From Lachnospiraceae bacterium MD308 (GTDB lineage: Bacteria > Bacillota > Clostridia > Lachnospirales > Lachnospiraceae): a stretch of DNA of 64,000 nt. The notes beneath the pieces are model-generated. The model was not told where the DNA came from. It saw only the letters and a program-made list of their open reading frames with translations, and did not search any database. The DNA lies in the NCBI GenBank assembly GCA_000403475.2, contig KE159797.1:62001-126000 (forward strand), given 5' to 3'. Position 1 is the first letter of the stretch. The number at the start of each line of letters is the position of its first letter. A program made the position numbers and the translations under genes. Positions 42,884-60,403 of this stretch are shown here, piece by piece.

Positions 42884-43028
42884 TTACACGTTTTGGTGAA
42901 GGTACTTCTCGCGGGTAGCAAGTCCACCGCGTATATGGCGTTCGGACTTATTGAGGTCTAAGATTTTCCGCGCCTCAGAGGCAAGCGACGGGTTAATCTG
43001 GATAAGGCGCTCGGTTACATCTTTATGT
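42884..43028 (-). pseudogene. spoIIID: spoIIID, 3' part (gene interrupted by IME2)
   Basis: Reading from the junction, the frame gives HKDVTERLIQINPSLASEAR, KILDLNKSERHIRGG and LATREKYLHQNV. This is unmistakably the C-terminal half of SpoIIID, the mother-cell DNA-binding regulator of sporulation, including the second half of its helix-turn-helix. It has no start of its own; a longer open frame to 43102 is a chance read-through of the element end. The 5' part is at 60272-60403. Confidence 0.93.
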
Positions 43029-44618
43029 GTGGACGTTATTATTTGGAACGTTTTCTTTGCTAGGGGAATCGCCTTTGTTCCTTTCTTTCCAATCATTCTC
43101 AATCAACACTGCTTTCTCCAATCCCAAGTCACCGAACAACCGTAGATAAATATCTACGGTTCCCTCCTTGTCCACTTCTATTTTCTGAATAATCTGTTTG
43201 AGCTGCTCATTGGTCATCTGGTGTACATCCGTAATATCTTCTACTGCTTTGAATGTATTATTTAACAGGTCTTCCAGTTGTTCTCCCTTTGTCAGATGAA
43301 ATGATACCATCTTTAATTCATTTTCAAGCCGTTGGATTTCCTTTCTCATACCTCCAATCTTTGTATTCAGCTCTTCACGGGAAATCAAATCGTCTGTATA
43401 CATGTCCATATATTTTTGACGAGTTTTCTGTAATTTGGCAAGTTGCTGATTCAATTCTTTTTCATATTCTATGTTTTCATCCTTTGCCTTGTAGATTCGC
43501 TGGAACTCATTGACTACATTATGGATGACGTTCTTTTTTTGCTTCAGCATTTCAGCAAAATATTCTTGTAAGGCTTGGATCAGTTCTTCTTCGTCAACAG
43601 TCACAGCATTGGGACAACTGTCAGCACCACGGCCATTATGACCGGAACATACCCAACGGACATACGTGTTTTTATAGGTACGGACTGTACGCCTGAAAGA
43701 CCATCCACAATCCTTGCACTTAATGAGCGTAGAAAACAGGTATTTATTACTTTGACGTTCGTGTTTGATGTTAAATGCTTTATTTCTGGACTGTAATATC
43801 TGCTGTGTTTTTTCATATGTTTCTGGTTCAATAATGCGCAAGTCCGGCCGCTCTACAACCATCCAGTCTGTTTCATCCTTATCGGTACGCCTGCCGGTTA
43901 AAAAATCGGCTACTTCCTGCTTGCCATTGATGATTTTCCCTGTATATAGCTCATTGGTAAGGATACGGCAGATAGCGTTCTGACTCCACTGGCAATTACG
44001 CTTTGTCTTTAGTCCACGTTCATTTAACTTGTTGGAAATCTTGGCGGCTCCATAGCCTTCTTTTGTGTACCATTGGTAAATCTGACGGATAATAGCAGCT
44101 TCTTCCTTATTGATCTCCAAATTGAAATAATCGCCTATGGTTTTATTATAGCCGTAAACGATATTAGGAACTCGCCCTTTTTCTGCATTCATCTTCTTGC
44201 CGAACTTCACACGCTTGGAGGTATTGGCGCTTTCTTCCTGAGCTAAGGCACCGAAAATTGTTAGTACAAATTCACTGTTTCCCATGCTGGTCATGTTGGC
44301 AGTGAGGAATTGGGTTTCGATACCTAAGGATTTCAGTTTGCGAATATTTTGAAGAAGGTCTACCGTATTACGGGCAAAACGGGAAATATCTTTTACCACC
44401 ACCATGTCGAATAATCCATTCTCCGCATCAGACATCATACGTAAGAATTCTTTACGATTTTTAATTTTAGTTCCAGAAATGCCTTCGTCTGCATATAATC
44501 TAATAAGAGTGTTGCCTGTACGGGTGGTATATTCAGAAAAAAAGGCTTTTTGGGCTTCTAGGCTGTTTAGTTGGTCTTCCTTGTCCGTGGACACACGGCA
44601 GTATGCGGCTATGTTCAT
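43023..44618 (-). CDS. Large serine recombinase (integrase) of IME2
   Basis: 531 residues. The resolvase domain carries the nucleophile Ser10 in AAYCRVSTDKEDQ and the conserved VVVKDISRFARN. The recombinase domain follows (IVYGYNKTIGDYFNLEINKE; AAKISNKLNERGLKTKR). A zinc ribbon has IKCKDCGWSF and a later VRWVCSGHNGRGADSCPN. A coiled-coil segment is near residue 400. The gene's stop codon (43023-43025) is formed partly by the chromosomal side of the junction, so the C-terminus would change on excision. Its place at one end is typical of integrases acting on the flanking att sites. Confidence 0.95.
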   Translation of the reverse strand: MNIAAYCRVSTDKEDQLNSLEAQKAFFSEYTTRTGNTLIRLYADEGISGTKIKNRKEFLRMMSDAENGLFDMVVVKDISRFARNTVDLLQNIRKLKSLGIETQFLTANMTSMGNSEFVLTIFGALAQEESANTSKRVKFGKKMNAEKGRVPNIVYGYNKTIGDYFNLEINKEEAAIIRQIYQWYTKEGYGAAKISNKLNERGLKTKRNCQWSQNAICRILTNELYTGKIINGKQEVADFLTGRRTDKDETDWMVVERPDLRIIEPETYEKTQQILQSRNKAFNIKHERQSNKYLFSTLIKCKDCGWSFRRTVRTYKNTYVRWVCSGHNGRGADSCPNAVTVDEEELIQALQEYFAEMLKQKKNVIHNVVNEFQRIYKAKDENIEYEKELNQQLAKLQKTRQKYMDMYTDDLISREELNTKIGGMRKEIQRLENELKMVSFHLTKGEQLEDLLNNTFKAVEDITDVHQMTNEQLKQIIQKIEVDKEGTVDIYLRLFGDLGLEKAVLIENDWKERNKGDSPSKENVPNNNVHT

Positions 44619-44736
44619 ATTAACCTCTCTGTTAGCTTCAAACCATTCAGTTACTTCTTAAATTATACTATATTTATAGAAACACGCAAGGACAATCTTT
44701 CAATCAAATACTGTCCTATAACACAATTATGAATCT

Positions 44737-45128
44737 TTACTTTCTTACAATATATTTCTCATCTCTTTTTCTAAACGAGTACATCGTTCCTTCTAAAATA
44801 GTAACTACACTATTATTAATCTCTGGATTCTCAATACCTCCTGCACAAATATTTACCTCCTGATTATTCTCTTTATCAATTTTCACATATATTATTTGAT
44901 CAGAATCTGCAACAACCGCCAAATTGGGGTTATGTGTAACTAATATAATTTGCCGCCTCTTTTTAGCCGCCTTAATAAATGGAACCAACACTTTAGCAAC
45001 ACTCTGATTATCCAAGTTATCTTCTGGTTGATCAATAATTAATGGTATATCTCTTAAATCAAGTAATAAATAGAAAATCAACAACAATGATCCTCTTTCA
45101 CCAGGTGATAAATTGTCAAGAGTTTTTT
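44737..45128 (-). pseudogene. TrlF-like PHP-SMC ATPase, 3' part (split by ISL3 element)
   Basis: Reading from the insertion edge gives the ABC/SMC signature LDNLSPGERGSLLLIFYLLL followed by Walker B RDIPLIIDQPEDNLDN and VTHNPNLAVVADSDQIIYV. This is the C-terminal ATPase half of the protein begun at 49378. After removal of the ISL3-type element and one 8-bp target copy, the frame reads ISDEKTLDNLSPGERG without a break. Confidence 0.9.
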
Positions 45129-45223
45129 GAATCTTTCCAAGGTTAGTTGAAATTGTGTTTTTTTCCAGATGAAAAAGTGGTATAATAAGTGTAGTTTTTA
45201 AAACATATACGGGAGTTTATACC

Positions 45224-45664
45224 ATGGATGAGTTTATTAAAGAGCTGGATGCCAGTTTGGATTATTTAGAGCATGAAATAACAGAAAATGAAGTCATTAT
45301 ATATGTGGCATCAAATCGCAAATCAGGCAGTTGCCCCTACTGTGGGTGCGATTCCATGCGCGTACACAGCCGTTATGAAAAAAGTTTTCAGGATCTGCCC
45401 ATCATGGGGAAGAAAACGAAGGTCATCATCGAAAACAGGAAATTCTTCTGTGATAACCCGGACTGCACATTTACCACCTTTGCTGAGCGTTTTGATTTTT
45501 TGAAACAGAATGGCAAAAAAACGAAACGCCTCATTGAGAAAATCATAGACATATCCCTGAATACCAGTTCCATTGCGGCCTCAAGGACATTGAAGGGCGG
45601 GATTGCGGATGTCGGCAAAAGCACCATCTGCAATCTCTTAAAAAAAAGACATACCACTCCCTGA
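45224..45664 (+). pseudogene. ISL3 transposase, N-terminal part (frame broken at A8)
   Basis: 146 residues. A zinc-finger domain (GSCPYCGCDSMRVHSRYEKS; FCDNPDCTFTTFAERF) is typical of ISL3 transposases. The frame ends in KKRHTTP after the A8 run at 45640-45647. With one A fewer (or a +1 slip) it would continue as KKDIPLPEKQSITKVCIDDF into the catalytic frame. Other ISL3 transposases are usually one frame, so this is probably an indel, though programmed slippage cannot be excluded. Confidence 0.85.
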
Positions 45665-45683
45665 AAAACAGTCCATAACAAAA

Positions 45684-46844
45684 GTGTGCATTGACGATTT
45701 TGCATTCAGGAAAAGGCAGACTTACGGTACGGTCATGGTGGACATTGACACACACTGCGTGGTTGACCTGATCGCATCACGTGAAGTGGAGGACGTAGCG
45801 GAATGGCTCAGGAGTTATCCCAATATCCAGATCGTATCAAGGGATGGTTCTGTTTCTTATAAGAGCGCCATTGAACAGGCGGGGATGGATATACAGCAGG
45901 TAAGCGACCGGTTCCATCTTCTCAAAGGTCTTACGGATGTAGCGAAAAAATTCATATCACGACTTCTGGCGGTAAACTTTATGCTCCCGACAGAAGCATC
46001 CCATTATGACGGGAAACCCACGGGGGATTACTGGGACAAACCCATTAAAGAAGATTCCCCTACCGCAGAACATAATGCAAATGTGGAAAAGAAGATGAAA
46101 GTGGTGGAACAGGTGCGGGAACTAAGGAAACAGGGGTTCAATAAGGGAGAGATTGCCGGGCGTGTGGGCATCCACAGGACGACCGTGGCAAAATATCTGA
46201 AGGAAGATTTTAATCCTTCCAGCCTTTATTACAATACGACCACCCCCAGTAAGATAAAGCCTTATGCAAAAGACATAAAGGACATGCTCAGTGAGGGGAA
46301 AACATTCCGGCAGATCAGTGCAGCAATCCGTGAAAAGGGATATGGCGGGTCAGATTCCACAATCCGCATGTTTGCCACAAGGGAACGTAAGATTATGAAA
46401 GAAACCGCCGGTCAGGGAGTGTCGGGTGAAAAAATTGAACGGAAATGGCTGATCAGCCTGCTGTACCGTCCGATTGACGAGGTTTCATCCATCAGTGCAG
46501 AACAGCTCGACCGGATTATCGGGGAATACCCCATCATAGGGCGTGTTTATGATGCTGTATCAGGTTTCAAACAGACGCTGTTTGGTAAAAAAGAATCCGA
46601 ACTTGATAAATGGCTGGAAGACACAGATGCCTTGGAAATAAACGAACTATGCAGTTTTGCAAACGGGATAAAGAGAGATATTGCGGCAGTAAAAAATGCA
46701 ATCTCATTTGACTATAATAATGGGCTGGCGGAGGGAAGCGTGAACAAGCTGAAAGTTGTCAAAAGGATCATGTATGGCCGCAACAGCTTTGAACTGCTGA
46801 AAGGGAAGCTGTTGCGGCTTGAGTTAAGGCGCAAAATCAACTAA
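45684..46844 (+). CDS. ISL3 transposase, catalytic part
   Basis: 386 residues of the DDE transposase. The first conserved block is VCIDDFAFRKRQTYGTVMVD (first Asp), then IQIVSRDGSVSYKSAIEQAG (second Asp), with the final block NGLAEGSVNKLKVVKRIMYG (Glu). An inserted helix-turn-helix region (EQVRELRKQGFNKGEIAGRV) is typical of the family. The ATG at 45684 lacks a ribosome site, so this frame probably depends on the upstream one. Confidence 0.87.
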   Translation: MCIDDFAFRKRQTYGTVMVDIDTHCVVDLIASREVEDVAEWLRSYPNIQIVSRDGSVSYKSAIEQAGMDIQQVSDRFHLLKGLTDVAKKFISRLLAVNFMLPTEASHYDGKPTGDYWDKPIKEDSPTAEHNANVEKKMKVVEQVRELRKQGFNKGEIAGRVGIHRTTVAKYLKEDFNPSSLYYNTTTPSKIKPYAKDIKDMLSEGKTFRQISAAIREKGYGGSDSTIRMFATRERKIMKETAGQGVSGEKIERKWLISLLYRPIDEVSSISAEQLDRIIGEYPIIGRVYDAVSGFKQTLFGKKESELDKWLEDTDALEINELCSFANGIKRDIAAVKNAISFDYNNGLAEGSVNKLKVVKRIMYGRNSFELLKGKLLRLELRRKIN

Positions 46845-46866
46845 CTTTGGAAAGACTCAGTTTTTT

Positions 46867-49378
46867 CATCACTAATTAGCTCATATTTGTTAGTGATATA
46901 ACTCATCCCATATAAATAGTTATAAAACTCTAACAATTTATTTGTTTTTATTTGAGACATTATATCAGTTTCAAAACAATTCAAACAATCAATAATGAGT
47001 TCTGGAATCTTAATATGCTCATCTATAACCTCAATATTATTCAACTTCTCAATTGTCTTATATAATTGATAATTATCATCTCTAAAAGCGTTTTTCTTCT
47101 GTTTATTAATAAAATCAAACACTTCATTCTGAAAACTTTCTTCAACCACAAGACCAGATCTAATGTTAATACTATAATCATTAAGCAATTCTTTATTTTC
47201 ACTCAAAAAATTATCCACGGGTTCTTTAAATCGATTATATACTGAAATTATTTTTTTCTTTTCATTACAAATATCAGAAGCAACCCTAATTCGTTCTTTA
47301 TACAATGGTGCCAAATCATCTTCTATCTTATTTTTAATATAAGACAATTCCTCTTGTACTTTCTTAACCGCCTCTGCCTTTTCATCTCTTACTTTTGACC
47401 ACTCCTGATATTCCGCCATATACTGGTCATATGCTCGAATGTTTTTATCTTCGTCTGCTATTATTCTCTGTTTATCAGATTGCATTTTAGATATTCGTAC
47501 TTTCAATCCTATATTTTTATCATTCAACAGCTCTCTTATATCTAATAACTCATCATCTATTTTTTTCTTCTTTTCTTTAATCGGCCGTCTATCTATTTTC
47601 AAATTAATTATATCATCGATATGTATATCAAATTCTTCTAAATTTAAACGAATTTTTTCTATTTCACCTCCCATTCTATTTTCAAAATCATCTATCATCT
47701 CCAAATCTCGTGATAACGCATTAGAATCTTTACTTATTTCAACTATTCTTTTTTCCTTTTCTTCAATTTGATCAGACAACTCTTTTATTATACTTTCTAA
47801 TTGTTCATATCTTTCACGAACATTTTCCGATAATACCGGTTTTTCCACTTTACTTGGACAAATCTTATCATGTGCGTCTAACTGACTTTTTGCATCTTTT
47901 AATAAGGATTCCTGAGATGCTGCATAGGTTGGCAATTTCTTATTTTCTAACTCTATAATTTGTTTATTTATTTCATTCAAATTGGCAGACAAGTGTTGAA
48001 TACTACTCTCTGATACTCTGGAATATTTGTCTATCAGATTCTCTAATGACACTTCTCCTTCTTTTTCTTCTTCACTTAAACGCGAAAAAATCACACTATT
48101 AATTTCTTCAGTAAATTTTTGCAATTCAGTATCCGTACAAATCTCTTCAAAGTATTGTTGAGGAATGCACTGAATTCTTTCAATGTTCGTCATTTCTGGC
48201 TGTATTGCTAAATTTTTACAAACTTCTTCTGAATTTTTCCATTTCATTTTACACAAAAAATTAGACGCTAACTTATTTTTCTGAAACTTTTTTCCATTTA
48301 AAAAAGCAAATTTAGAATAATTTCTGCTGTCTGCAGTCCACGCCATAGCTTCAGCCAATGCAGATTTTCCATTTCCTTTATTTCCAATTATACTTATTAA
48401 CCCAGAATTCAATGGTACTTCAATATTTTTAAACCATTTTCCTTTCTCTCCTCTATACCCATTTTCCCAATCAAGAATAATCCTATCAATATATTTTGTT
48501 GGATTTTTCTTAACCCTCTCCAATTCATCCGGTATTTCTTTTAAACAAATTCTATTATCATAATCTATCAAAGCTTGCTTTAATCCCTCAAATGTACAAT
48601 CTGCTTTAATCCATGTATATTTTTCTATAAAATTATATTCTGCTTTCTCATGTGAATCTGATGCTAACATACATGGTTTCCCAAAACATTGCTTGTAAAA
48701 CTTGGCGTTTTGAGCCTCTCTACGATTAAAATTAGGCAGTTCTATCACATCAATTTTGTTTACAATGATATCTGTCTTTGTCATATCCAAATATTCATAC
48801 AGTTCCTCTGCAGTAGGCTCTTTTCTCTTAGCATCTTTCATCTCTTTTTCAATACTTCCATGTTTATCTCCTCCGTGGATAATCACTAATCCACCGAGTT
48901 CATGTGTTAATGTAACCACTTTATCAAAATCAACAGTTGATGCCAACAACCCTTTTGAATAATTTCCATCCCCATTACTTTCTATTACACTCTCTGTTAA
49001 TTTTAATTGGGAACAGAAATTGTCATATAAAGTTTTTTTATCAGCTTTCTTCAAGTTTCCTTTAATATTTATTCTTTTAGGAAAAATAGAAATAAGATGT
49101 ACTCCCTTTTTTCCTTTGTCTGTTTTCACTTCAATTCCTGGCAAAAATTCAATAAAATCCTTAAACTTTCCTTCAGAAAATGTACCATTTTCATAAACAT
49201 CCCACACCTCATCTAGTGCATCAAAATTACTATGATCCGTAATAGATATCATACTAATATTATTCTTTATTGCATTTATAAAAATATCAGAAATTTCCAT
49301 TTTTGTTCTACTTTCTCTTGAATATTTAGAATGTAAATGTAAATCCCACTTCCTCCACTCAGAGCCCCTATTTATCAT
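46867..49378 (-). pseudogene. TrlF-like PHP-SMC ATPase, 5' part
   Basis: About 837 residues of a TrlF-family AAA-like ATPase. A PHP phosphoesterase domain at the N-terminus has WDLHLHSKYSRESRT and SITDHSNFDALDEV, VIIHGGDKHGSIEK and MLASDSHEKAEYN (metal-binding His and Asp). The SMC/Rad50-type head follows with Walker A IIGNKGNGKSALAEAMAW near residue 330. A long coiled coil (about residues 480-700) then leads to the insertion site. RloA and RloB lie upstream on the same strand. Confidence 0.92.
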
Positions 49379-49424: not shown

Positions 49425-50043
49425 TTACAATTTCATTTCTTTGATTAGAAGTCCCAAATTACTACCTACTTTGTTCTCTAGCAACACCACATCCTCACAA
49501 AATTCTTTCTCATTCTCAATAGCTTTATCAATACGTTTTACAACTTCCACTGCCTTATATGCGTTTTTCTCATATCCGGGCCAAATCCTACGCAACTCTT
49601 GTTCCGCATATCTTCTTTTAGCTGTAACTTTAGGATTTTCCAACAATTTTTCCTGTTCTAATTCAAAAACCTCATTAAAATGTAAAAGAAGCCAGAATTC
49701 AAAACAAGGATTTGTTATATATAGCCCAAATTTCTTTTTCGCACACGTATTAACCACATAATCATATTGATTGTTTTTCGGTACAGAAATAAAGCTTTCC
49801 CTGTCTCTGTCCACAATCAAGCAAATTTTATCAAATCCCTCCGCATATGTGAGACCACCTTCTTTAATTATATTACAAATGTCTGAAACCACATGTACCA
49901 GTTCATATTCTTTTCCTAATTTTTCTAATATCATATTACATGTATGCTCTATATCTTCAACATCAGAATCTAAAGTTTTATGCAAATCTTCATCACAAAT
50001 CTTACACATTGTTTTCCATATACTTCTTGCTTGTATCCTACTA
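49425..50043 (-). pseudogene. rloB: RloB-family protein, 3' part (split by IS630)
   Basis: About 200 residues after the insertion: ICLIVDRDRESFISVPKN near the middle and the family hallmark GLYITNPCFEFWLLLHFNEV, then KRRYAEQELRRIWPGYEKNA. RloB (AbiLii) is the partner of the RloA ATPase in abortive-infection type systems. An ATG at 50009 exists, but the continuous frame comes from the 5' fragment at 51320-51648. Confidence 0.9.
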
Positions 50044-50083
50044 GTGTACTGACCTGTTGATATTTAGCATTACTACCGCCTCA

Positions 50084-50875
50084 TTAAGAGGCAGTAGTAA
50101 ATACAGGATACAGGGAGCTGAGCTTTATTCTGGCATCACTGGTTCTGAACTGCCAGTTGACCTTTGCCGCAGCTGTATTCCGCTTCGCTTCCCATACGGA
50201 CAGTTCTTTGCGTAATAGTCCTATCTCAGCAATGCGGCGGCTGAGGCATTGTCTGGTCATTACATTAAGCTCTATTTCAGCAATGTCAAGCCAGCTTCCA
50301 TGCTTTGGCGTATAATGTATCTCCAGCTTTTTAATGATACGCCTTGCTTCTTCCGGCGGATACCGTTTGTACAGGGAAGCTGGTTTATGGGTGTTCAGAT
50401 TATCCATCACAAGGATAATCTTCTCGGCATCAGGGTACATGATGTCCGCCAGATACCTGATTTCTTCTGCCCAGTCGACGGCTGCGCGGTGTTCCCGGAC
50501 ACTCACATGGTGAACCCCTCCAAGTGGTTCCACAAAGGCAAAGATGCTCACAGTGCCATTACGGACATATTCCGAATCGGTTTTCCGGCTGCTTCCGGGA
50601 ATCATTGGCAAAGGCTCCCTTGCCTCCCCCAGAAGCTGGTATGGTTTTTCGTCCATACACACAACCGGATATTTTTCATCATAGGGAAGTTCATAAACGT
50701 CAAGGATATCCTCCATGCAGGCTATGAATTCCGGGTCTTCTTTTGCCGGGATGCACCAGTAGTCGTTTTTGTGAGGTCGAAGTTTGTTTTTTTTAAGGCA
50801 TTGCGGATTGCCTCCCTGCCTACAGGAGTTTCCAGAATCACTTTTGATTCTTCCTCGAGCAGGCGGATGGTCCAC
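50084..50875 (-). CDS. IS630 transposase, DDE frame (copy 2)
   Basis: Identical in sequence to the catalytic frame of copy 1, with VVCMDEKPYQ, VMDNLNTHKP and HGSWLDIAEIEL. It likely needs the -1 frameshift from ORF A. Confidence 0.92.
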   Translation of the reverse strand: MDHPPARGRIKSDSGNSCRQGGNPQCLKKNKLRPHKNDYWCIPAKEDPEFIACMEDILDVYELPYDEKYPVVCMDEKPYQLLGEAREPLPMIPGSSRKTDSEYVRNGTVSIFAFVEPLGGVHHVSVREHRAAVDWAEEIRYLADIMYPDAEKIILVMDNLNTHKPASLYKRYPPEEARRIIKKLEIHYTPKHGSWLDIAEIELNVMTRQCLSRRIAEIGLLRKELSVWEAKRNTAAAKVNWQFRTSDARIKLSSLYPVFTTAS

Positions 50876-51231
50876 CGGGAGTGTCCTTCTGGAACGGGGC
50901 CGCAGGCAAGCTCAATCAACCGGGCTTCTGTACGCCCGTCAACCTTGCGCCTTGCATTATCTGAATTTATGCTCCTTTTAAATTCGGTAACGGCATCAGT
51001 GCCGCCATTCACGTATTTCGATACAGTATTCGTGACAGTTGCCATGCAGACACCATTGGATCTTGCGCTTTGTTCGTGGGTCAAAACTTTTCCATGCGCT
51101 TCGTCCAGGTCGAGAATAATCTGACATCTGCTGCGAATAGTTTTTGAAGTTTCCTTCTTACGGATAACAGATTTCAACTTTTTAAATTCATTTTCTGTAA
51201 GATGGATGCTATACTTTTTTGGTCTTGCCAT
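50722..51231 (-). CDS. IS630 transposase, N-terminal frame (copy 2)
   Basis: Same as the frame in copy 1 except one residue (GGTDAVTEF instead of GGIDAVTEF). The slippery A8 run is at 50787-50794. Confidence 0.9.
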   Translation of the reverse strand: MARPKKYSIHLTENEFKKLKSVIRKKETSKTIRSRCQIILDLDEAHGKVLTHEQSARSNGVCMATVTNTVSKYVNGGTDAVTEFKRSINSDNARRKVDGRTEARLIELACGPVPEGHSRWTIRLLEEESKVILETPVGREAIRNALKKTNFDLTKTTTGASRQKKTRNS

Positions 51232-51319
51232 AGAAATCACCGCCGTTTCTTTTATTATACATCAAAACAGCTGTGATTTCCATAATAATTTAGTTAAATA
51301 TCAACAGGCCAGTACACTA

Positions 51320-51648
51320 GTTGTTATTACTTTTGACTCGTAAAAGTAATCCATAATTCGATTTAATAAAGTTTCATAAGACATGCTATTTGTTTTACTT
51401 TCTTCCAAATTTTCAATTATCCTATCTAATATTTTTTTAGGATTGCTCCAGCCCTCTTCACTGTAACTTCGTATAATGGGAACAAGCTCAATTAATGGGT
51501 TAATTCCAATATCTTCACGCATAGCATTAACTGCATCAAAATATAAAACTTCCGTATCTGAGCCTTCATATATCAAAAAATATTTTCTTAATGTCTTATC
51601 TGAGGAAAAAACTTGTGTACGTTCTGCAAATGGTCTACTTTCTCTCAT
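51320..51648 (-). pseudogene. rloB: RloB-family protein, 5' part
   Basis: 109 residues beginning MRESRPFAERTQVFSSDKTL and KYFLIYEGSDTEVLYFDAVN, the N-terminal RloB motif with the Toprim-like Glu. Removal of the IS630 copy and one TA joins YESKVITTSRIQARSIWKTM in frame with the 3' part. It starts 5 bp after the RloA stop, so the two were co-transcribed. Confidence 0.9.
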
Positions 51649-51653: not shown

Positions 51654-53036
51654 CTACACCTCTTTGATTGGAAATACTGTACTGAAAATAGGAACACCTC
51701 CATAACGCCCCTCTAAATAAGCTTTATCAATTTTTTGATCAAATCTTGCATTATATTCTTCCAAGGAATAAATATCACTTTCTCCAGATTTTCTTTTATT
51801 TACAAACCATATTTCATCTCGACGCAATAAATCAAAATCCATCAGTCGCGACTCATGTGTCGTTACAATTAACTGAATGTCTTTTTGTGCTGCTAATTCT
51901 AAAAATGTATCTACAAACTTATATGTCAAGCTTGGATGCAAACATCTATCTAATTCATCGATAACATATGTTTTCCCCTCACCAGATAAAAGTACCTCTA
52001 ACAAATCCAAAACTCTTACCGTTCCATCTGATTCTTCTGATAAATCAAATAATATATTCTTTTTTCCATGTGAAAATTTAATTGTTTTACATATGACATT
52101 TTCGTCTTTATCAATACTCAATATGAAAAAATCACGTTGACTTCTCATTATGATACCTAAACCATTTATCTCTTCATCATTCTTCATATCGGATACTTTC
52201 TTTTCAATATCGGCAAGTAATTTTTCTTGTACTCTTTTTGGCATATGCCCCAATACTTTTTCGACCGGTATTTCTACCATTTGAAAATCTGTTATACCTG
52301 TTCCAAAAGCTGCTATGATTCTACAGATTTCCTCTACATTTTCAGTCTCAGCCATATAGGAATAATTCGAGATGGGTCTGTCTGGATAATTTATATCTAA
52401 ACTATTCTTCATCCACATATAAACATTCCGAAATATTGCTGCATGTTCAAATTGCTGATATAAAGTTTTCTTGTTCTGATTCATTATGGATAATAATAAT
52501 GCACTGTCATCTTCTTGAATATCTTCTGCATAAACATGAAGTTTCTCTACTAATCCTTTTATATTGACTTGTCCACCAAATTCATATGTTCCCTTAGCTA
52601 TATCCCTACTAAAGACCATTTTTTCTCTGTTGTCAGATGTAAGTTCTATTAACCATTCGGATATGAACTTTCCTTTATTTAGGATTACCTCAAATCCATA
52701 AGCATAATATTTATTACCTAACATAAGTTCTAATTCAAAATAACTTTCTTTATCTCTATTATCGTCATTAACTTTACAATATTTGTCCATATATCCTTCT
52801 GGCAAACCAAATAATACAATTCGTCTCATAAATGCTAATGCTTTCACTATGTTTGATTTACCAGCCGCATTCGCTCCATATACAGCGGCAAATTTTAATA
52901 GCTTAATTTTATCATCAGCGTATATATGTTCCTTTTTGCTTCTCACTTTACCAGCAATCATTGAAAATTCTTCCGATTTTCCATCTTCCCTTTCTGAAAA
53001 AGAAAGAAAATTTTTAACATTAAAACGAATAAGCAT
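51654..53036 (-). CDS. rloA: RloA/AbiLi-type AAA ATPase
   Basis: 460 residues. N-terminal MLIRFNVKNFLSFSEREDGK, Walker A AVYGANAAGKSNIVKALAFM, and C-terminal Walker B TYVIDELDRCLHPSLTYKF with VTTHESRLMDFDLLRRDE define the ABC/OLD-like ATPase of RloA (AAA_15/AbiLi). No obvious coiled coil. Intact. With its RloB partner disrupted, the two-component system is probably inactive. An AT-rich promoter zone precedes it (53040-53150). Confidence 0.9.
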   Translation of the reverse strand: MLIRFNVKNFLSFSEREDGKSEEFSMIAGKVRSKKEHIYADDKIKLLKFAAVYGANAAGKSNIVKALAFMRRIVLFGLPEGYMDKYCKVNDDNRDKESYFELELMLGNKYYAYGFEVILNKGKFISEWLIELTSDNREKMVFSRDIAKGTYEFGGQVNIKGLVEKLHVYAEDIQEDDSALLLSIMNQNKKTLYQQFEHAAIFRNVYMWMKNSLDINYPDRPISNYSYMAETENVEEICRIIAAFGTGITDFQMVEIPVEKVLGHMPKRVQEKLLADIEKKVSDMKNDEEINGLGIIMRSQRDFFILSIDKDENVICKTIKFSHGKKNILFDLSEESDGTVRVLDLLEVLLSGEGKTYVIDELDRCLHPSLTYKFVDTFLELAAQKDIQLIVTTHESRLMDFDLLRRDEIWFVNKRKSGESDIYSLEEYNARFDQKIDKAYLEGRYGGVPIFSTVFPIKEV

Positions 53037-53176: not shown

Positions 53177-53356
53177 TCAACTTGAAAAACTCCTAACTTC
53201 TTCACCTTGTACTTCCATTTTTTCTGCCGCTTCTTGCAACATCCAATCAATTTTAGCCTGATTAACCTCAATAAATATTTTTGTTATGTAATTAGCGGTT
53301 TCCTCCGCTGAATTAGGATTATGGAAACGAAAATGAAGCTTTGTTTTATTAGCGAT
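53177..53356 (-). CDS. Small element protein with apparent ATC start
   Basis: A 59-codon frame encodes ANKTKLHFRFHNPNSAEETA, NYITKIFIEVNQAKIDWMLQ and EAAEKMEVQGEEVRSFSS. A strong AAGGAGGAGG sits 7 bases upstream, but the expected start codon position reads ATC, with a stop just upstream. Similar small proteins (xxxLHFRFHNPN) occur on clostridial transposons. Either ATC is used as a weak start or the gene is dead by a start mutation. The rest of 53357-53490 shows no gene. Confidence 0.5.
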   Translation of the reverse strand: MANKTKLHFRFHNPNSAEETANYITKIFIEVNQAKIDWMLQEAAEKMEVQGEEVRSFSS

Positions 53357-53490
53357 AGTGAAACCTCCTCCTTACCAACTTGTTTCTTTTTTCATAACTA
53401 TGAAAACGCCTTCTAAAATAGTCCTATACTTTTCATTCATTTTTCAACATACGATTTGGCGTAAACTGATATTATCTATCTACATTTCTA

Positions 53491-54327
53491 CTATTTCAAC
53501 ATTCCTTTCAGATATTCCATGTTCTTCTGTGCCTGTTCCTTACGGAAATTTATCCCGGAACAACAGATTGGCGTACACATGGCAAGTACCCTGTCATAAA
53601 TTCTCTGATGCGCCCTGTCTGCCGGATTCTGCAATTCCGACAGCGTTAGGTTCGTAGTAACAATCAATGGTCTATGGCTTCGGTAACGGCTGTCTATCAC
53701 GTTATAGACCTGCTCTAAGCCGTATTCTGTCCCTCTCTCCATCCCAAAATCGTCCAGTATCAGAAGTGGAAAGCTGCATAATTGCTCTATGTATGCATTT
53801 CTCCCGTTTAATGTGCCTGTCAGATCGTTCAAGATAGCGGCAAAGTTCGTCATCCGTACCGGAACCTCCCGCTCCATCAACGCATTTGCAATACATCCTG
53901 CAAGGTAGGTCTTTCCTGTGCCGACATTCCCCCATAGGAGATATCCACGGCTTTCTGCCCGCATTTCTTCCCAATGCTCCACATAGATATGTGCAAATCT
54001 CATCTGTGGGTTTCTGCCATTGTCATTGTCAAATGTCCATCTCTTCATGCTGCTGTCTGTGAACCCGATGTCCTTTAACCGTTCCACGGTGGCTTCATGC
54101 TCCCTTTGTCGTTCTTCAGCTTCCCACTTTTCCCGTTCCTTTCTCCGGCACTCACATTCTGACGGATGGCGGTCACGCCCGAAAAGCGTCTTTCCCTCCG
54201 GGAAATAGGCTTCTTTCGGCGTATGGCAGACACCACAGTATAAAAGCCCGTCCTCCCCTTTGTAATCGCCGTTTTCCGGCTCTGTATCCATCGGAACCAT
54301 TGTTTCCTTTGTATCGTCTAAAATCAT
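53491..54327 (-). CDS. DnaC/IstB-like ATP-binding helicase loader
   Basis: 278 residues. A Cys-rich N-terminus (LLYCGVCHTPKEAYF; CECRRKEREKW) is followed by the AAA core: Walker A LLWGNVGTGKTYLAGCIANA, Walker B LLILDDFGMERGTEYG, sensor 1 LIVTTNLTLSEL and Arg finger region HQRIYDRVL. This is the DnaC-like loader of Firmicute integrative elements. It overlaps the initiator gene by 4 bp. Confidence 0.9.
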   Translation of the reverse strand: MILDDTKETMVPMDTEPENGDYKGEDGLLYCGVCHTPKEAYFPEGKTLFGRDRHPSECECRRKEREKWEAEERQREHEATVERLKDIGFTDSSMKRWTFDNDNGRNPQMRFAHIYVEHWEEMRAESRGYLLWGNVGTGKTYLAGCIANALMEREVPVRMTNFAAILNDLTGTLNGRNAYIEQLCSFPLLILDDFGMERGTEYGLEQVYNVIDSRYRSHRPLIVTTNLTLSELQNPADRAHQRIYDRVLAMCTPICCSGINFRKEQAQKNMEYLKGMLK

Positions 54328-55145
54328 AGGCTCTCGCCCTCCTTATATTCGTAATCGGGAATACCCTGTGCGGCATTGCCCTTCCTGTCATTGTCCGCCC
54401 ATATCCGTATGGCGGCGGCATAGTTGTGATAGCTTTTCCCGGTTGCGGCAAGATAACGGCTCATTTCCTCTATAAACCTCTGTAACCTTCCGGGATATTC
54501 CTTTTCCAATTCCGAAAACTCTTCTTCAGAGAGGAAAATATTACAATACCTGCCGTGGGCGGTGCGTCCCCCATTCACTCCCTTTGTTTGGCTCTCTATT
54601 GTTTTGTTTATATTATAGTTGTTAGAGGCCAGTTTTCTGGACTTCATAAGTCCGATTTTCTGACTGTCAGTAGTCCGGTTTTCCGGACTTATGAGGTACG
54701 GATTTTCGGACTCCATAGGTACAGAAATCCGGACTACTGGCGGCAGCTTCACATACAGGTGGTTTGCTGCAGAAAATCCCTGCCGTTTCCGTTCCAAAAG
54801 TCCGGCACGGTCTAATTCGTTCAACGCCTCTTTCACCGTTGACGGGCTTTTATCCAGCGCATCCGCTATCGCCGTTACCGGAAATATAATATATGTCCTG
54901 CCGGATTCATCCTGCCATCCATTCCTCTGTGATAAGGTGGTGCGGTCTAAGAGCAGCACATACAGCAGCTTTGCTGTCTGTGTAATCTCCATTTTCAGCA
55001 GGAACCGGGGATAGGGGAGATAGGGCGGTAAATGCGTATCTGCCCCGATATATCCGGTTTCTTGATTTTCTGCCGGATTTACTGGCATATGTTCCTGTAG
55101 TTCCCCTTGGTTTCCGGCCTTCCTCCCGCAGCCATTATCTATCAT
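54324..55145 (-). CDS. Replication initiator protein (RepA_N-type)
   Basis: 273 residues. The ATG at 55145 (MIDNGCGRKAGN) is used because it overlaps the upstream stop by only a few bases; an earlier ATG at 55181 lies deep in that gene. The conserved N-terminal block LPYPRFLLKMEITQTAKLLY, then YVLLLDRTTLSQRNGW and the winged helix DALDKSPSTVKEALNELDRAG match the RepA N-terminal family. The C-terminal part is charged with ICE-type ending. It probably initiates replication of the excised element. Confidence 0.87.
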   Translation of the reverse strand: MIDNGCGRKAGNQGELQEHMPVNPAENQETGYIGADTHLPPYLPYPRFLLKMEITQTAKLLYVLLLDRTTLSQRNGWQDESGRTYIIFPVTAIADALDKSPSTVKEALNELDRAGLLERKRQGFSAANHLYVKLPPVVRISVPMESENPYLISPENRTTDSQKIGLMKSRKLASNNYNINKTIESQTKGVNGGRTAHGRYCNIFLSEEEFSELEKEYPGRLQRFIEEMSRYLAATGKSYHNYAAAIRIWADNDRKGNAAQGIPDYEYKEGESL

Positions 55146-55656
55146 GTTCTGCCTTTTTATCGGGATACAGCTTTCCGGCAACTACGTCGGCATGGCTTTT
55201 AATTTTAATCTCCCCACGCTTTTCACTGGCTCTGGCGTTGCGGTATCCTGCATCCGAGAGAAAGAACCGGTATCTCTCCCCTTTAAACCCGACAGGACTG
55301 TCATTGTTCAGCACATCAAGGACTATCATGTGACGGGTATCTGACTGAAACCTTTCTATCCCCGACAGGTCATGCCCCTGCAGGACAGGCCGTTTTACAC
55401 GTTCCTTTGCTTCGGCAAGCCGCCGTAAGACTGACCGTTCACTCTTTTCTATGTGATATGCTTTATTGTCTGCTATAAAACGGCTGCATTCCGGCTCCGG
55501 CAGCTTCTCCAGCTTTTCGGCGGCATTCCTTATGATTATGTAAGTCACTTTATCCTCGGTAGCGGGTAATGTTTCTTTCATCGCCTTAACCGTATCTTCT
55601 TTTGTCGTAGCTGCATATTTGTAAATCATCTCCAGTTCGCTCTTGGTAAATTGCAT
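55135..55656 (-). CDS. Element protein of unknown function
   Basis: 173 residues beginning MQFTKSELEMIYKYAATTKE, with ACAGGAGGATC upstream of the ATG at 55656. The N-terminal helical part resembles small DUF6103-like proteins of Firmicute ICEs. A C-terminal part contains MIVLDVLNNDSPVGFKGERY and RFFLSDAGYRNARAS. It lies between the relaxase and initiator genes. Function unknown. Confidence 0.72.
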   Translation of the reverse strand: MQFTKSELEMIYKYAATTKEDTVKAMKETLPATEDKVTYIIIRNAAEKLEKLPEPECSRFIADNKAYHIEKSERSVLRRLAEAKERVKRPVLQGHDLSGIERFQSDTRHMIVLDVLNNDSPVGFKGERYRFFLSDAGYRNARASEKRGEIKIKSHADVVAGKLYPDKKAEHDR

Positions 55657-55677
55657 AGATCCTCCTGTTTTCATTCT

Positions 55678-57294
55678 CTATCGTTCTTGTTCCTGCCGTC
55701 TCTGCGGCTTGTATTCCTGTTTCAGCATTACGTCAATGTTAGATTTCACACGGCGCAATTCTTCTGTTTTTGTTTTCTGCCCCCGGTATTCGCTGTAAAT
55801 GGCATTTTTCCGGGATAGCAGGGATTCATTTTCAGCCTGGATTTTGGCTATGGCAGGGAATTTCGTCATCCCCCGTTCCTTAAAATACCGTCCCGCCACT
55901 TCAAACAAGGCAAGGTCTGCCCGGTTCTCTTCCCGGTAGCGTTCCGGCTTTCTCGATTTTTTCAGGCCGTCATAGGTCGGCTTGGTTTTGCGGTAGACGG
56001 TTGCCTGCCGGATCAGCTCCTTATTATCGGCAATCCTCTTTTCCATAGATTTCATTTCTTTTGATAATTCCCTCTGCCTGTCGGAAGATTCTTTTATAGC
56101 TGTATCTACATCCTCCGGGCAGGAGAAACCATATTCTTCAAGATAAATCATGGTCTGGGACATCTGCTGAAGGTTGAAGTCTTTCGCCCACCATTCATAT
56201 CCTTTACCCTTGCCCTCGCTCATTTTCCCCGGAATATCAACCATGCGCTGCACACTGTCCTGATTGGGTGCGGTTTTAGGCGTTTTACGGCGTTTCAGGC
56301 GTTCTACTACGCTGTCCCTGTGGTTTTGTCCGGATTCCTCCTTTTGGACGGTTCTGGAAGCATTTTCAGCAAGGACAGACAATACCGTTGCTTTATCAAA
56401 ATCTGTTCCTAACTTTCGGGCAGTAATCGGCTTGGTTCTGTCCGGGGTAAGGTAGCTGTATCTCCCCCGGCTTTCTTTGACTGCAATCCCATAATCCTGC
56501 ATGAGCTTTGCAGAAAACTCTTCAAAGGACACTGCCATAGAAAGCACTGACCGGATAGACTGCCGTAACAATTCTTTCTCTGTTTCAAACTTTGGCTGTC
56601 TTGGGGTAAGTCCGTCTGCAATCATTTTTTTATTTAGGACATTTTTCTCTGTCTGCCCTCGTTTTTTTGCCCAATACTCACGCTCGGTAATCTTCTCCCT
56701 GCCGCCGTTCAGTAAATCAATCTGATGCAGCCCCTCACGCTGGCACATCTCCATGACTTCACTTCGGAAATACCGCATGGCAGAAGCGGTACAGCGGTGC
56801 TTTGCGCCTGCCTGTGTGTCACACGGCCTGTCCATGTAGGCTTTCCGTTCCACCTCATGGATACGCAGTGAATTAATGACGATATGCACATGGATGTTGC
56901 CGGAGTGGTTATGTCCGTCCGGGTGGGTGCAGACAAGCGCCTGATGTCCAGGGAAATGCTTCTGGCAATACTCTATTCCCAATTCCTGTGCTTTCTCTAC
57001 GGTCAGCTCATTATCGGCGGCGTCCCTTGGGTCAAAACTGATGATATAATGGTGGCTCTTTATGTCCTGTCTCTGACTATTCTTTTTATACTGCATATTT
57101 ACCCGCAGGCAGGAGATAGCAAAATCTTCATCCTCGCAATTCAAAGTGTCGATCCGGTAACCTTCACGGGGAACCATTCTTCCGGCTTCATTCCTTATTG
57201 GCTTCATGGTAAATTCGTCATGTTCAAATGTCAGATATTGTTCTGCAGCTCCGTAATCGGCATTTTTAGAGCTGATATGTTTTATCGTTGCCAT
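55678..57294 (-). CDS. Relaxase/mobilization nuclease (MobP-type)
   Basis: 538 residues. N-terminal MATIKHISSKNADYGAAEQY, then SHHYIISFDPRDAADN and the metal-binding NHSGNIHVHIVINSLR (His-x-His) with an upstream CTHPDGHNH define a MOBP-type relaxase. The C-terminal half is Lys/Glu-rich and helical. It overlaps mobC by 29 bp. No VirD4 or VirB4 is present, so a helper is needed for transfer. Confidence 0.92.
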   Translation of the reverse strand: MATIKHISSKNADYGAAEQYLTFEHDEFTMKPIRNEAGRMVPREGYRIDTLNCEDEDFAISCLRVNMQYKKNSQRQDIKSHHYIISFDPRDAADNELTVEKAQELGIEYCQKHFPGHQALVCTHPDGHNHSGNIHVHIVINSLRIHEVERKAYMDRPCDTQAGAKHRCTASAMRYFRSEVMEMCQREGLHQIDLLNGGREKITEREYWAKKRGQTEKNVLNKKMIADGLTPRQPKFETEKELLRQSIRSVLSMAVSFEEFSAKLMQDYGIAVKESRGRYSYLTPDRTKPITARKLGTDFDKATVLSVLAENASRTVQKEESGQNHRDSVVERLKRRKTPKTAPNQDSVQRMVDIPGKMSEGKGKGYEWWAKDFNLQQMSQTMIYLEEYGFSCPEDVDTAIKESSDRQRELSKEMKSMEKRIADNKELIRQATVYRKTKPTYDGLKKSRKPERYREENRADLALFEVAGRYFKERGMTKFPAIAKIQAENESLLSRKNAIYSEYRGQKTKTEELRRVKSNIDVMLKQEYKPQRRQEQER

Positions 57295-57688
57295 AGGCTT
57301 CCCCGATCACTTTCAGCACTTCAAACTTCAAAGCGGCAAGATTAGCGGCACATGCTTTCAGTTCTTCAGCAAGCTCCCGGTAAGGCAGGCTGTACTCATT
57401 TAAGCGTCTGGCAATCTGGTTTAAGTTGCTGCCGATCTTCCCGTACTGCGCCACCAGATTTGATACTGCCGTAAGCATTTCTTCATTGTTTGCCGTTACC
57501 TTGATGGTAGTGGATACCTTGCCGAAAAAGATTGCCTGACGTAAATACTCTGACTGGCTTATGGAAAGTGTCCTGCATTTTTCTTCAAAGTCCTGCCGTT
57601 CTTCCTCGGTCAGACGGGTCTTGACAATGCAGCCCCGGTGTGGCGTGTTGTAAGTTTTTTTCGTAGCTATCGTTATCACTCCTTTCAA
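57266..57688 (-). CDS. mobC: MobC relaxosome accessory protein (start uncertain, possible ATA)
   Basis: A ribbon-helix-helix protein that helps the relaxase at oriT. ATKKTYNTPHRGCIVKTRLT, then EEERQDFEEKCRTLSISQSE and the MobC signature LVAQYGKIGSNLNQIARRLN. The natural start expected from homologues (xATKKTYN) corresponds to ATA at 57668-57670, with AAAGGAGTG 7 bases upstream. The TTG at 57688 and the GTG at 57679 both overlap that ribosome site. Thus a non-AUG start is likely. Confidence 0.88.
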   Translation of the reverse strand: MKGVITIATKKTYNTPHRGCIVKTRLTEEERQDFEEKCRTLSISQSEYLRQAIFFGKVSTTIKVTANNEEMLTAVSNLVAQYGKIGSNLNQIARRLNEYSLPYRELAEELKACAANLAALKFEVLKVIGEAYGNDKTYQL

Positions 57689-58163: not shown

Positions 58164-58571
58164 TTATGATTTCATATTTTTATCGTAATACTGCGATACG
58201 ATTCGTATAGACTCTTCATCTACATGAAACTCTTTCGATATTTCTTCCGTAGATTTTTTCTCTATATAATAATTCTGATATACGAGCGCCGCCATTTCGC
58301 AGGACTGTGCGATCAGAGTTCCGACCAACATTCTCATAAGGTCAATAAATTCTTTCACATCTGGATTCACTTTCTCATCAGAACCCTCCAACACTTTAGA
58401 CAAGTCTGTTTCATCAAGATTTTTATTTTCCTTTTTCAGATTTTCCCGGATAAAATCCCGGATCATTTCCTGTTCCTCTCCCGACAGCCGTGTATATAGC
58501 CAAATCATTTCTATGACTTCTGCAGGCAGGTCTAATGGCAACGGCGGTAATTGTATATATTGGGGTTCCAT
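58164..58571 (-). CDS. Unknown helical protein with possible sigma-like HTH end
   Basis: 135 residues, MEPQYIQLPPLPLDLPAEVI onward. Mostly helical. The middle VLEGSDEKVNPDVKEFIDLM and LMRMLVGTLIAQSCEMAALV resemble a regulator with a short hydrophobic helix. The end KSTEEISKEFHVDEESIRIV looks like a helix-turn-helix. It lies just downstream of the membrane protein gene (34 bp). Function unknown. Confidence 0.6.
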   Translation of the reverse strand: MEPQYIQLPPLPLDLPAEVIEMIWLYTRLSGEEQEMIRDFIRENLKKENKNLDETDLSKVLEGSDEKVNPDVKEFIDLMRMLVGTLIAQSCEMAALVYQNYYIEKKSTEEISKEFHVDEESIRIVSQYYDKNMKS

Positions 58572-58604
58572 TCTTCCTTTACCTTCCTATTATCAATTCT
58601 TGAA

Positions 58605-59420
58605 TCACTCGGTTTCATTGACAGACTTAACATCTATCTTGTAACCGCTGTCTTTATACTCTATTTCTAATGTGTAATCTCCAATTCGTACCTTGCTTTC
58701 ATCCTCCACGGGATAAAAAATATTTTTCTCTGTATCATAGATGACCAATTCCCCAATAGCTTGATTCTCAACCATATCTAACATGGCTTCAATGCAATCA
58801 TCACAAAACAATTTTTTCATCCTGTGGATACTGACAATGCCATTCCCTCTCTCTATTTCTGCAGAACCCTCATTTTCTCCCGGACTTTTAGAAATATGGA
58901 TGCTGGTCTGGCTGATTTCATCATAACCAAATGTGAACTGCGTATTACCCTGATATTCTTCCGGTTCTATCCCACGTTCAAAAATATCTAACGAATAGGA
59001 TTCCCCTGTATTCAGGCTTACAAGAACTGCCTGCGCCGGGTAACTCCCCTTGCAGGCACGGCATTTATTTGAAGTATTCGGGATGTCCCGGACATATTTT
59101 TCTATGTCCCTTTCATATTCACTATACACTAAATCGTGTCTTATGGTCTGGGCAATCTCGTCATATTCATCTTCTGTAGCAGACTCCATGTAAGACGTAA
59201 CCATATTTAGAAGTTCCTCCATAGCTGCGTCATCCCGGCGGTCCATCCGCAGGTTATTGATATTAATGAGCAAGATCACAAAAGCAACCGTAAGCATACT
59301 TATTATAAAATAGCCATATAAAAGAGAACGCTTATCTGACTGGCTTAAATGCTTCTTAGAATCGTCGTGTTCATCCCCTATCCAGAAATCATCCCAATTA
59401 TTCTTTATCCTTTTCCACAA
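58605..59420 (-). CDS. Unknown membrane-anchored protein with two CxxC motifs
   Basis: 271 residues. A charged N-terminus (WKRIKNNWDDFWIGDEHDDS) and one membrane span (YGYFIISMLTVAFVILLI) are followed by a mostly beta-rich external domain. That domain holds CRACKG near residue 143 and CDDCIE near residue 213, a likely metal site or thiol pair. It ends TLEIEYKDSGYKIDVKSV. Expressed toward the relaxase genes, divergent from the HTH pair. No family recognised. Confidence 0.65.
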   Translation of the reverse strand: MWKRIKNNWDDFWIGDEHDDSKKHLSQSDKRSLLYGYFIISMLTVAFVILLININNLRMDRRDDAAMEELLNMVTSYMESATEDEYDEIAQTIRHDLVYSEYERDIEKYVRDIPNTSNKCRACKGSYPAQAVLVSLNTGESYSLDIFERGIEPEEYQGNTQFTFGYDEISQTSIHISKSPGENEGSAEIERGNGIVSIHRMKKLFCDDCIEAMLDMVENQAIGELVIYDTEKNIFYPVEDESKVRIGDYTLEIEYKDSGYKIDVKSVNETE

Positions 59421-59456
59421 TCCTCTAATCTTTCACACCCCCATTCCTTCACAATA

Positions 59457-59558
59457 TAACCGCATACCGTTAATCTATCATATTTTATTCGTATAGTCAA
59501 CCGTACACCGTTAATACAATGTCTTGAAACCTCTTATACTTTCATTAACCGTACAAAG
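59457..59558. promoter_or_regulatory. Operator-like repeats upstream of the tandem HTH pair
   Basis: Read on the complementary strand, ATTAACGGTATGCGGTTA (59457-59474) and ATTAACGGTGTACGGTTGAC (59496-59514) share AACGGT-x3-CGGTT; a third half-site CATTAACCGT lies at 59543-59552. A fourth full site TTAACGGTATGCCATTAACC lies at 59823-59842 between the two HTH genes. The sites sit before both genes and within their own promoter region, suggesting autoregulation. Confidence 0.6.
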
Positions 59559-59572
59559 TTGGGGGGATTTTC

Positions 59573-59815
59573 ATGACATATTCTGACGCTGTTATTAAAA
59601 GACTGACGGCATTATGTGCCGAACGGGATATTACTGTAAATAAATTAGCTACACTATCCGGGATCACGCAATCTACAGTAGACAATTTAATAAAAGGAAA
59701 AACAAAGAACCCCAAGCTGAAAACTTTACATAAATTAGCAGTCGGTTTAGATATGACAGTATCCGAGTTATTGGATTTTCCTGAAATGAATGAAATTGCA
59801 TTTGAAGATGAATAA
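59573..59815 (+). CDS. Small XRE-family HTH regulator, copy 1
   Basis: 80 residues of Cro/CI helix-turn-helix: AVIKRLTALCAERDITVNKL, then ATLSGITQSTVDNLIKGKTK and a C-terminal helix ELLDFPEMNEIAFEDE. It has a TTGGGGGGAT ribosome site. Tandem paralogue of the next gene. Probably a repressor of the element; located next to the right junction. Confidence 0.85.
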   Translation: MTYSDAVIKRLTALCAERDITVNKLATLSGITQSTVDNLIKGKTKNPKLKTLHKLAVGLDMTVSELLDFPEMNEIAFEDE

Positions 59816-59898
59816 TCAATTATTAACGGTATGCCATTAACCTTAAAGAAAATTTCCCCGTATACTCTATTTAATTCTTGGAACAGGGAGAGTTCTTT

Positions 59899-60141
59899 AT
59901 GACTTATTCAGATGTGATTATTTTAAGGCTCACCAGATTATGCAAAGAACATAATATTACGATAAACAAACTGGCCACTTTATCTGGGATTACTCAATCT
60001 ACCGTCGAAAATATTATGTCCGGTAAAACAAAGAATCCCAAACTGAAAACACTCCATAAACTGGCAATTGGTTTAGGCATGACTGTATCTGAGTTATTAG
60101 ATTTCCCTGAAATGAATGAAACCATCTTTGACGATGAATAA
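59899..60141 (+). CDS. Small XRE-family HTH regulator, copy 2
   Basis: 80 residues, about four-fifths identical to copy 1 (DVIILRLTRLCKEHNITINK; ATLSGITQSTVENIMSGKTK). The ATG at 59899 follows CAGGGAGAG; a longer frame from 59878 lacks a good site. The pair looks like a tandem duplication in which both copies stayed intact, as in paired repressor/antirepressor switches. Confidence 0.85.
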   Translation: MTYSDVIILRLTRLCKEHNITINKLATLSGITQSTVENIMSGKTKNPKLKTLHKLAIGLGMTVSELLDFPEMNETIFDDE

Positions 60142-60152
60142 AAGACCATATA

Positions 60153-60186
60153 AAAAGCAGATGCTCACTTCACATCTGCTTTTTAT
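60153..60186 (+). terminator. Terminator after the HTH pair
   Basis: AAAAGCAGATG (60153-60163) pairs with CATCTGCTTTT (60173-60183), followed by TTATATTC. Confidence 0.85.
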
Positions 60187-60271
60187 ATTCTTAATTATAC
60201 AATATTATTTCAATCCGCGTTTATAATAAACCTCTATACAATCGTCCATACTTCTCTTTTTATCAACCGTT

Positions 60272-60403
60272 CTATTTTGTTACTACTGCATGTATCGTGC
60301 TTTTGCTTACCCCGAACTTCTTCGCCGTCTGCCGTACCGTCGCTTTATGCTCAATAATATAATAAGCGATTTCTACTGCCCGCTCCTCAATATAATCTTT
60401 CAT
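60272..60403 (-). pseudogene. spoIIID: spoIIID, 5' part (gene interrupted by IME2)
   Basis: An ATG at 60403 starts MKDYIEERAVEIAYYIIEHK followed by ATVRQTAKKFGVSKSTIH, the exact N-terminus and first half of the helix-turn-helix of SpoIIID. Beyond IH the frame enters element sequence (AVVTK) and stops. GCAGGGG precedes the ATG. The frame of 38 codons plus the 46 at 42884-43028 make a normal 84-residue SpoIIID. Confidence 0.95.

Follow-up and report, generated by a model that had tools for sequence, protein, structure and literature searches.

The window analysed here is a 64,000-nucleotide stretch of Lachnospiraceae bacterium MD308 (assembly GCA_000403475.2, contig KE159797.1, positions 62,001 to 126,000; G000:C3:62001-126000 in our numbering of genomes and contigs). 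In it, the gene for the mother-cell regulator SpoIIID is divided into two parts by an intervening element that carries a large serine recombinase. A preliminary description of the sequence had reported two spoIIID parts on one strand, a shared ACAT at both ends of an interruption of about 17.3 kb and a recombinase at one end, and almost all of this was confirmed. The 5′ half, comprising codons 1–38, occupies positions 60290–60403 of the minus strand and corresponds to positions 1–42 of the SpoIIID model. It ends in VSKSTIH; beyond this point the frame reads on into the element, which accounts for the additional stretch down to 60272 that had been assigned to the half. The 3′ half, core included, was found where it had been placed, at 42884–43028 on the same strand (model positions 22–79). 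The ACAT core is present at 60290–60293 (attL, 5′ junction) and at 43025–43028 (attR, 3′ junction). Removal of the intervening 17,265 bp (43025–60289) joins the halves at ACAT in a single frame encoding an SpoIIID of 84 residues, the cut being located in the His38 codon.

The recombinase (531 aa; 43023–44618, minus strand) contains the Resolvase, Recombinase and Zn-ribbon domains (PF00239, PF07508, PF13408) and ends in the 3′ junction. An alignment with 11 relatives showed the serine of its catalytic motif to be invariant. Its TAA stop codon (43023–43028 region) combines the T of the core with two bases of the host, and the C-terminus should therefore differ between the integrated and the circular form. 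A short shared core, halves on one strand, precise frame-restoring rejoining and a recombinase of its own are hallmarks of skin-like elements, and all of them were found here.

The genome (4.46 Mb, 4 contigs, 98.7% complete) yielded only two matches to the SpoIIID model, both partial (positions 1–42 and 22–79). An intact second spoIIID, which according to the preliminary description would speak against a skin-like element, was thus searched for and rejected. Within the genus of the window, spoIIID is split in G000, G299 and G302 and intact in G057 and G300, which display the uninterrupted site. The 5′ part of 38 residues in G057 is identical to that of the window. In G301, a gene copy at a contig edge is intact from codon 5 onwards and is accompanied by a spare 5′ half; a mixed population was rejected because this spare half is diverged.

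Upstream of the 5′ half of the window, a sigma-E-like promoter was predicted at 60432–60460 of the minus strand (−35 GAATATG, 60454–60460; 14-bp spacer; −10 CATACATT, 60432–60439). It fits at 13 of 14 positions to a sigma-E consensus of Bacillus subtilis (maximum score 14), which was used for all scores given below.

Interrupted spoIIID genes in related genomes

Among 299 genomes of the same family, approximately one per genus, 188 gave a spoIIID match (E 0.001 or better), 156 of them above the model cut-off. Eight of the 188 matches were weak (E above 1e-6) and are probably not spoIIID. The gene is interrupted in 22 of the 188 genomes. Both halves cut at an att site were present in 18 (G000, G024, G028, G031, G055, G076, G093, G106, G123, G132, G170, G173, G188, G222, G232, G263, G269 and G288), in several of them on separate contigs, and a single half with an att arm was found in four others (G003, G200, G256 and G171). 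Two further candidates were dropped, G115 as a contig-edge case and G058 because it gave weak matches only. Close relatives of the recombinase were detected in 16 of the 299 genomes, 14 of which are interrupted, the exceptions being G183 and G255. In G024 (locus L223, 18342–18875), a divergent complete spoIIID-like gene is located directly upstream of the interrupted copy. The widest separation was observed in G106 (loci L072 and L073), where about 75 kb lie between the halves on a single contig.

Eighty named relatives, out of 436 confirmed loci from a recombinase-alignment search of named genomes, were also compared. A spoIIID 3′ half follows the recombinase in 75 of them, whose record titles include Lachnospiraceae, Oscillospiraceae, Anaerotignum and Defluviitaleaceae. 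Commensal carriers include Schaedlerella arabinosiphila DSM 106076 (L085, element of 5.3 kb) and Blautia sp. An81 (L107). The distance to the recombinase match is at most 130 nt in 73 of the 80 loci and 2.4 kb in L132 and L139. No downstream 3′ half was found in L094, L109 (contig ends there), L146, L159 and L161. All 75 3′ halves are open over 45–57 residues and contain RHxRGG.

In 23 assembled cases (the window, eight further genomes and 14 of the 80 named loci) both halves lie on one stretch, separated by 3.5 to 17.7 kb. In-frame rejoining was possible in all 23 and gave proteins of 82–91 residues, the true start codon being unsettled in several. The att arms are conserved across these cases. 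When the arms were rejoined as attP, they formed a dyad around the core that exceeded all 200 base shuffles in 13 of the 23 cases and the shuffle mean in 22, L064 being the one not above it. The attP of the window scored 14 of 26 compared to a shuffle maximum of 13.

The two halves each occupy a separate open frame, and a TTG within the element could serve as start of the 3′ half, in line with the view that the two are independent genes or that the split is an assembly artefact. This explanation is already contradicted by the recurrence of the same junction in independent genomes with different element contents. Moreover, the congeners carry a single spoIIID gene, and not the independent halves that the preliminary description had named as a possible counter-finding. 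We therefore give it practically no weight. Since the same junction and a related recombinase recur in dozens of genomes, a chance origin of the split is excluded.

A second class of elements was found at nearly the same position. Three tandem large serine recombinases precede the 3′ half in G132, G171 and G076 (L081, L189 and L192). In these genomes, codon 40 (GAT) is cut, some 6 bp downstream of the first site, and the att arms are distinct. Matches of these recombinases to that of the window show 20–26% identity. No 5′ spoIIID half was found in G171.

A small open reading frame preceded by a sigma-E-like promoter

A small open reading frame (ORF) of about 50–60 residues with the motif KLNYxFHNPN was detected by tblastn in 74 of 89 loci. 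In eight of the 15 loci without it, the recombinase lies within 600 bp of the contig start. The homologous ORF of the window (53177–53356, minus strand; 59 aa, probable ATC start) occurs in a single copy in its genome, inside the element, and is a candidate recombination directionality factor (RDF). Of the 299 family genomes 15 contain the small ORF, and 14 of these are interrupted. It had no match in Pfam, NCBIfam or PHROGs.

The small ORF of the window is preceded by a predicted sigma-E-like promoter at 53395–53423 of the minus strand (−35 GACTATT, 53417–53423; 14-bp spacer; −10 CATAGTTA, 53395–53402). A sigma-E score of at least 10 was reached by 79% of 47 strict-motif copies; among the controls, it was reached by 12.7% of the other element ORFs (n = 157) and 11.8% of the host ORFs (n = 212). 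The combination of a 14-bp spacer and a −10 region 35–60 nt before the start was observed in 32 of 48 distinct copies, the 32 including three from added loci, but in none of the 157 element and 212 host ORFs; the starts of the control ORFs were set mechanically, which blurs this positional control and leaves the position-free percentages unaffected. The promoter consensus GACTATTT...TTTCATAG is present in 43 of 47 copies, and a sigma-E-like site also precedes the small ORF of the viral relatives L227 and L228. SpoIIID-type boxes were found before none of the 48 copies and in 64 of 1940 control windows, an expectation too low to call depletion.

The spoIIID 5′ half scored at least 12 in 10 of the 23 assembled cases, compared to 1% of 460 random windows. 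Regions upstream of the recombinase displayed no enrichment. Sigma-E control of the recombinase was rejected, as none of the 23 regions reached a score of 12.

Maintenance of the halves and of sporulation genes

Loci L132 and L139 represent two lineages of one inherited insertion, with upstream and downstream flanks of 93.5% and 95.3% identity and collinear elements that are 89.6% identical. Their spoIIID halves differ by 13–14 synonymous and no nonsynonymous changes (P 1e-9 to 5e-9 under neutrality). The halves of the window and G302 differ by 27 synonymous and no nonsynonymous changes and those of the window and G299 by 18 and 2, respectively, although part of this divergence may predate insertion. 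Close pairs were used because a pairwise dN/dS comparison of the complete set of 3′ halves suffered from saturation and bias, with a pooled pN/pS of 0.41 from 52 of 3486 pairs. The substitution pattern indicates that the spoIIID halves are under purifying selection.

The sporulation gene spoIVA was present in 20 of 20 interrupted and 20 of 20 intact genomes, but in only three of 14 genomes without spoIIID (Fisher P 1.3e-6). These 14 were drawn from 20 listed of the 111 non-matching genomes; G115, which is spoIVA-positive, was set aside as a contig-edge case. The genome of the window has an intact spoIVA and complete frames for a sigma-K-like (245 aa) and a sigma-E-like (262 aa) protein, the K and E labels being tentative ones from score order. 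In the accessible parts of the papers naming Schaedlerella and Sporofaciens, no statement on sporulation of these genera was found.

Near-identical recombinases occur in strongly divergent hosts. Among 73 loci, recombinases that are 1–5% apart were found in hosts whose 3′ halves differ at 27–42% of bases, which points to frequent transfer. The element blocks of L118 and L120 are 92–96% identical, whereas their halves are only about 82% identical. Maintenance through selection for sporulation and horizontal spread by phages or mobilizable elements both occur.

The element might be an ordinary integrative and mobilizable element (IME) or phage whose attB lies in spoIIID by chance, the host sporulating poorly or not at all until chance loss. 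The preliminary description had raised this possibility in the form of a normal IME in a host unable to sporulate. Mobilization genes are indeed present in the element of the window, frequent transfer is in line with such a lifestyle and excision may also take place during growth. The assumed loss of sporulation, however, is disfavoured by the presence of spoIVA in all 20 interrupted genomes tested, by the selection acting on the halves across the inherited insertion in L132 and L139 and by the sigma-E-like promoter of the small ORF. We consider this explanation unlikely.

Free forms with joined att arms

Four of seven relatives on viral contigs (L227–L230) contain the recombinase and the small ORF, with the P and P′ arms joined as attP and no spoIIID half within the stretch examined. 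Since L228 equals L229 and L230 is nearly identical, the four amount to two independent cases. Genes for an endolysin and a phage-type DNA ligase are present in L227. A strict attP pattern gave no matches on the viral contigs; the joined arms in the four were found by reading the recombinase ends. These forms are unintegrated at spoIIID and silent on the timing of excision. MT838016.1 (Bacteriophage sp.) was rejected as a free form, as a spoIIID 3′ half follows its recombinase and it thus represents an integrated form.

The existence of such free forms, one of them in a contig with phage genes, would also be compatible with excision driven by stress or growth phase, in which case part of the population would have a usable spoIIID before sporulation. 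The lack of sigma-E enrichment upstream of the recombinase fits this scenario as well. A sigma-E-like site at a fixed position before the small ORF, viral L227 and L228 included, is at odds with it and renders it very improbable.

Proposed excision in the mother cell

The skin-like character suggested by the preliminary description fits best with the retained spoIVA, the selected halves, the predicted sigma-E-like promoter of the candidate RDF and the attP-joined free forms. Most probably, the elements constitute a widespread mobile-element family that uses codon 38 of spoIIID as attachment site and is built to leave in the mother cell. The recombinase would be produced without sigma-E control. 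Upon commitment of the mother cell, sigma-E would transcribe the spoIIID 5′ half together with the small ORF, whose product would serve as RDF and allow the recombinase to excise the element as a circle. As a consequence, spoIIID would be rebuilt, and SpoIIID would appear after a delay and then act with sigma-E. The forespore chromosome, and hence the line, would keep the element. Because spoIIID is the very gene that is interrupted, SpoIIID could not be required for production of the RDF.

With less assurance, we lean towards a more far-reaching proposal. In roughly one in nine spoIIID-carrying Lachnospiraceae genera and in other gut Clostridia, the step from sigma-E to SpoIIID would proceed via an obligatory DNA rearrangement by a family of phages and mobilizable elements that have placed their excision under sigma-E control and exit, perhaps even transfer, from the doomed mother cell. 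Two unrelated recombinase systems would have converged on the same few codons.

Several points weigh against excision in the mother cell. The case for it is read from sequence, as is the candidate RDF role of the small ORF, which is suggested by linkage and promoter. In the window, this ORF has no standard start, its ATC start being conserved across its lineage (five loci). The complete elements L067 and L071, which have divergent recombinases, lack the small ORF. G183 and G255 carry the recombinase beside a complete spoIIID elsewhere, and G024 has its divergent second spoIIID. Given the frequent horizontal spread, some intact halves may simply reflect recent insertion. The late marker yabG was absent in 59 of 59 genomes tested, intact ones included, and is uninformative as a marker.

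Comparison with known interrupted sporulation genes

The following comparisons are based on the accessible parts of the cited papers. In the skin element of Clostridioides difficile, located in sigK, the recombinase CD1231 is expressed in growth and sporulation, and the 72-aa RDF CD1234, under control of sigma-E and SpoIIID, confines excision to the mother cell (PMC5025042). A large serine recombinase and a small RDF of sigma-E type, the latter predicted here, are common to both systems. They differ in that the target of skin is sigK and its RDF also needs SpoIIID, whereas here spoIIID is the target and no SpoIIID-type box precedes the 48 small ORFs. As far as searched, the candidate RDF belongs to another sequence family than that of C. 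difficile. The SPbeta prophage of B. subtilis resides in spsM (SprA/SprB), which is rebuilt by means of a mother-cell RDF (PMC4191935, PMC6957869). It is likewise a mobile element integrated in a sporulation gene, but the target gene and the host group are different and SPbeta is a phage, while the element of the window carries IME genes and yielded no phage structural gene.

The gin element of Bacillus cereus is a non-phage element with three serine recombinases that splits gerE, another small mother-cell regulator gene (PMC5595907). In layout, its three recombinases resemble those of the second class at spoIIID. The class of the window differs from gin as described by target and by its single recombinase. 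The yin element in yabG of Clostridium botulinum is likewise an intervening element that encodes a recombinase together with a small putative RDF expressed from a sporulation promoter (PMC10747680). It is described as unique to one strain and as having a putative sigma-K promoter, whereas the elements in spoIIID are widespread and a sigma-E-like site precedes their small ORF.

The interrupted genes named in the accessible parts of these papers are sigK, spoVFB, spoVR, spsM, gerE, kamA and yabG, and spoIIID is not among them (PMC4191935, PMC5595907, PMC6957869, PMC5025042, PMC10747680). In agreement with the preliminary description, which was aware of no such case, we found no spoIIID interruption in the literature searched, which did not include subscription papers, preprints or supplements; large recombinase surveys could list such sites unremarked. 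Developmentally excised elements in sporulation genes are known as a kind. What is new, as far as can be seen, is spoIIID as target, the wide distribution, the family of candidate RDFs and the convergence of two systems. In the accessible parts of the literature, developmental excisions are described for a few strains each. Here, interruption of one early mother-cell regulator by related, mobile elements extends over many genera of gut commensals. The elements allow direct tests of how mobile DNA becomes wired into a developmental programme and offer numerous recombinases with matching att sites and candidate directionality factors. They also affect which gut anaerobes count as spore formers from their genomes.

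Gene content of the element and its surroundings

The remaining genes of the element all lie on the minus strand as far as individually assigned. A NikA/MobC-like mobilization protein (57266–57688; PF21983, PF19514, PF05713) and a MobA/VirD2-like relaxase (55678–57294; PF03432) are followed by a DUF5720/TTRAP-like protein (55135–55674; PF18987, with PF14203 below its cut-off), a RepA_N-type replication initiator (54324–55181; PF06970) and an IstB/DnaC-like ATPase (53491–54327; PF01695, NF005992). Beyond the small ORF, the cargo includes an AAA_21 ATPase (51654–53036; PF13304) and an RloB-like gene (49425–51648; PF13707 twice, PF13358, PF13551) in two pieces (51301–51648 and 49425–50009) with transposase ORFs in between. 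The region 44737–49378 harbors a TrlF-like ATPase (46841–49378, below the model cut-off), ISL3-type transposase ORFs (45224–46844) and an AAA_21 fragment (44737–45087). The element thus has the recombinase, relaxase and MobC-like proteins of an IME. Among its 20 ORFs given to Pfam, no conjugation-channel domain and no phage structural or packaging gene were found. Judged by these predicted genes, it is IME-like and not a prophage.

The S. arabinosiphila element (L085) contains an AAA_21 and RloB pair as well, with RloB in one piece. Three short elements (L071, L067 and L068; 3.5–6.3 kb) carry host-like cargo, namely a permease, a choline-binding-repeat protein, and a histidine kinase with a solute-binding protein. 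No mobilization gene was detected among the four Pfam-searched ORFs, out of six non-recombinase ORFs of at least 70 aa, in these three.

Just inside the 5′ junction of the window, two similar small Cro/C1-type regulators lie side by side (59573–59815 and 59878–60141). Upstream of the 5′ half, an hsdR region of about 9 kb, covering 60467–64000 and about 5.4 kb beyond the window, lies between the native flank and the spoIIID promoter. A related region is located between two spoIIID 5′ halves in G302 (L207). These arrangements suggest that elements have accreted in tandem at the spoIIID locus.

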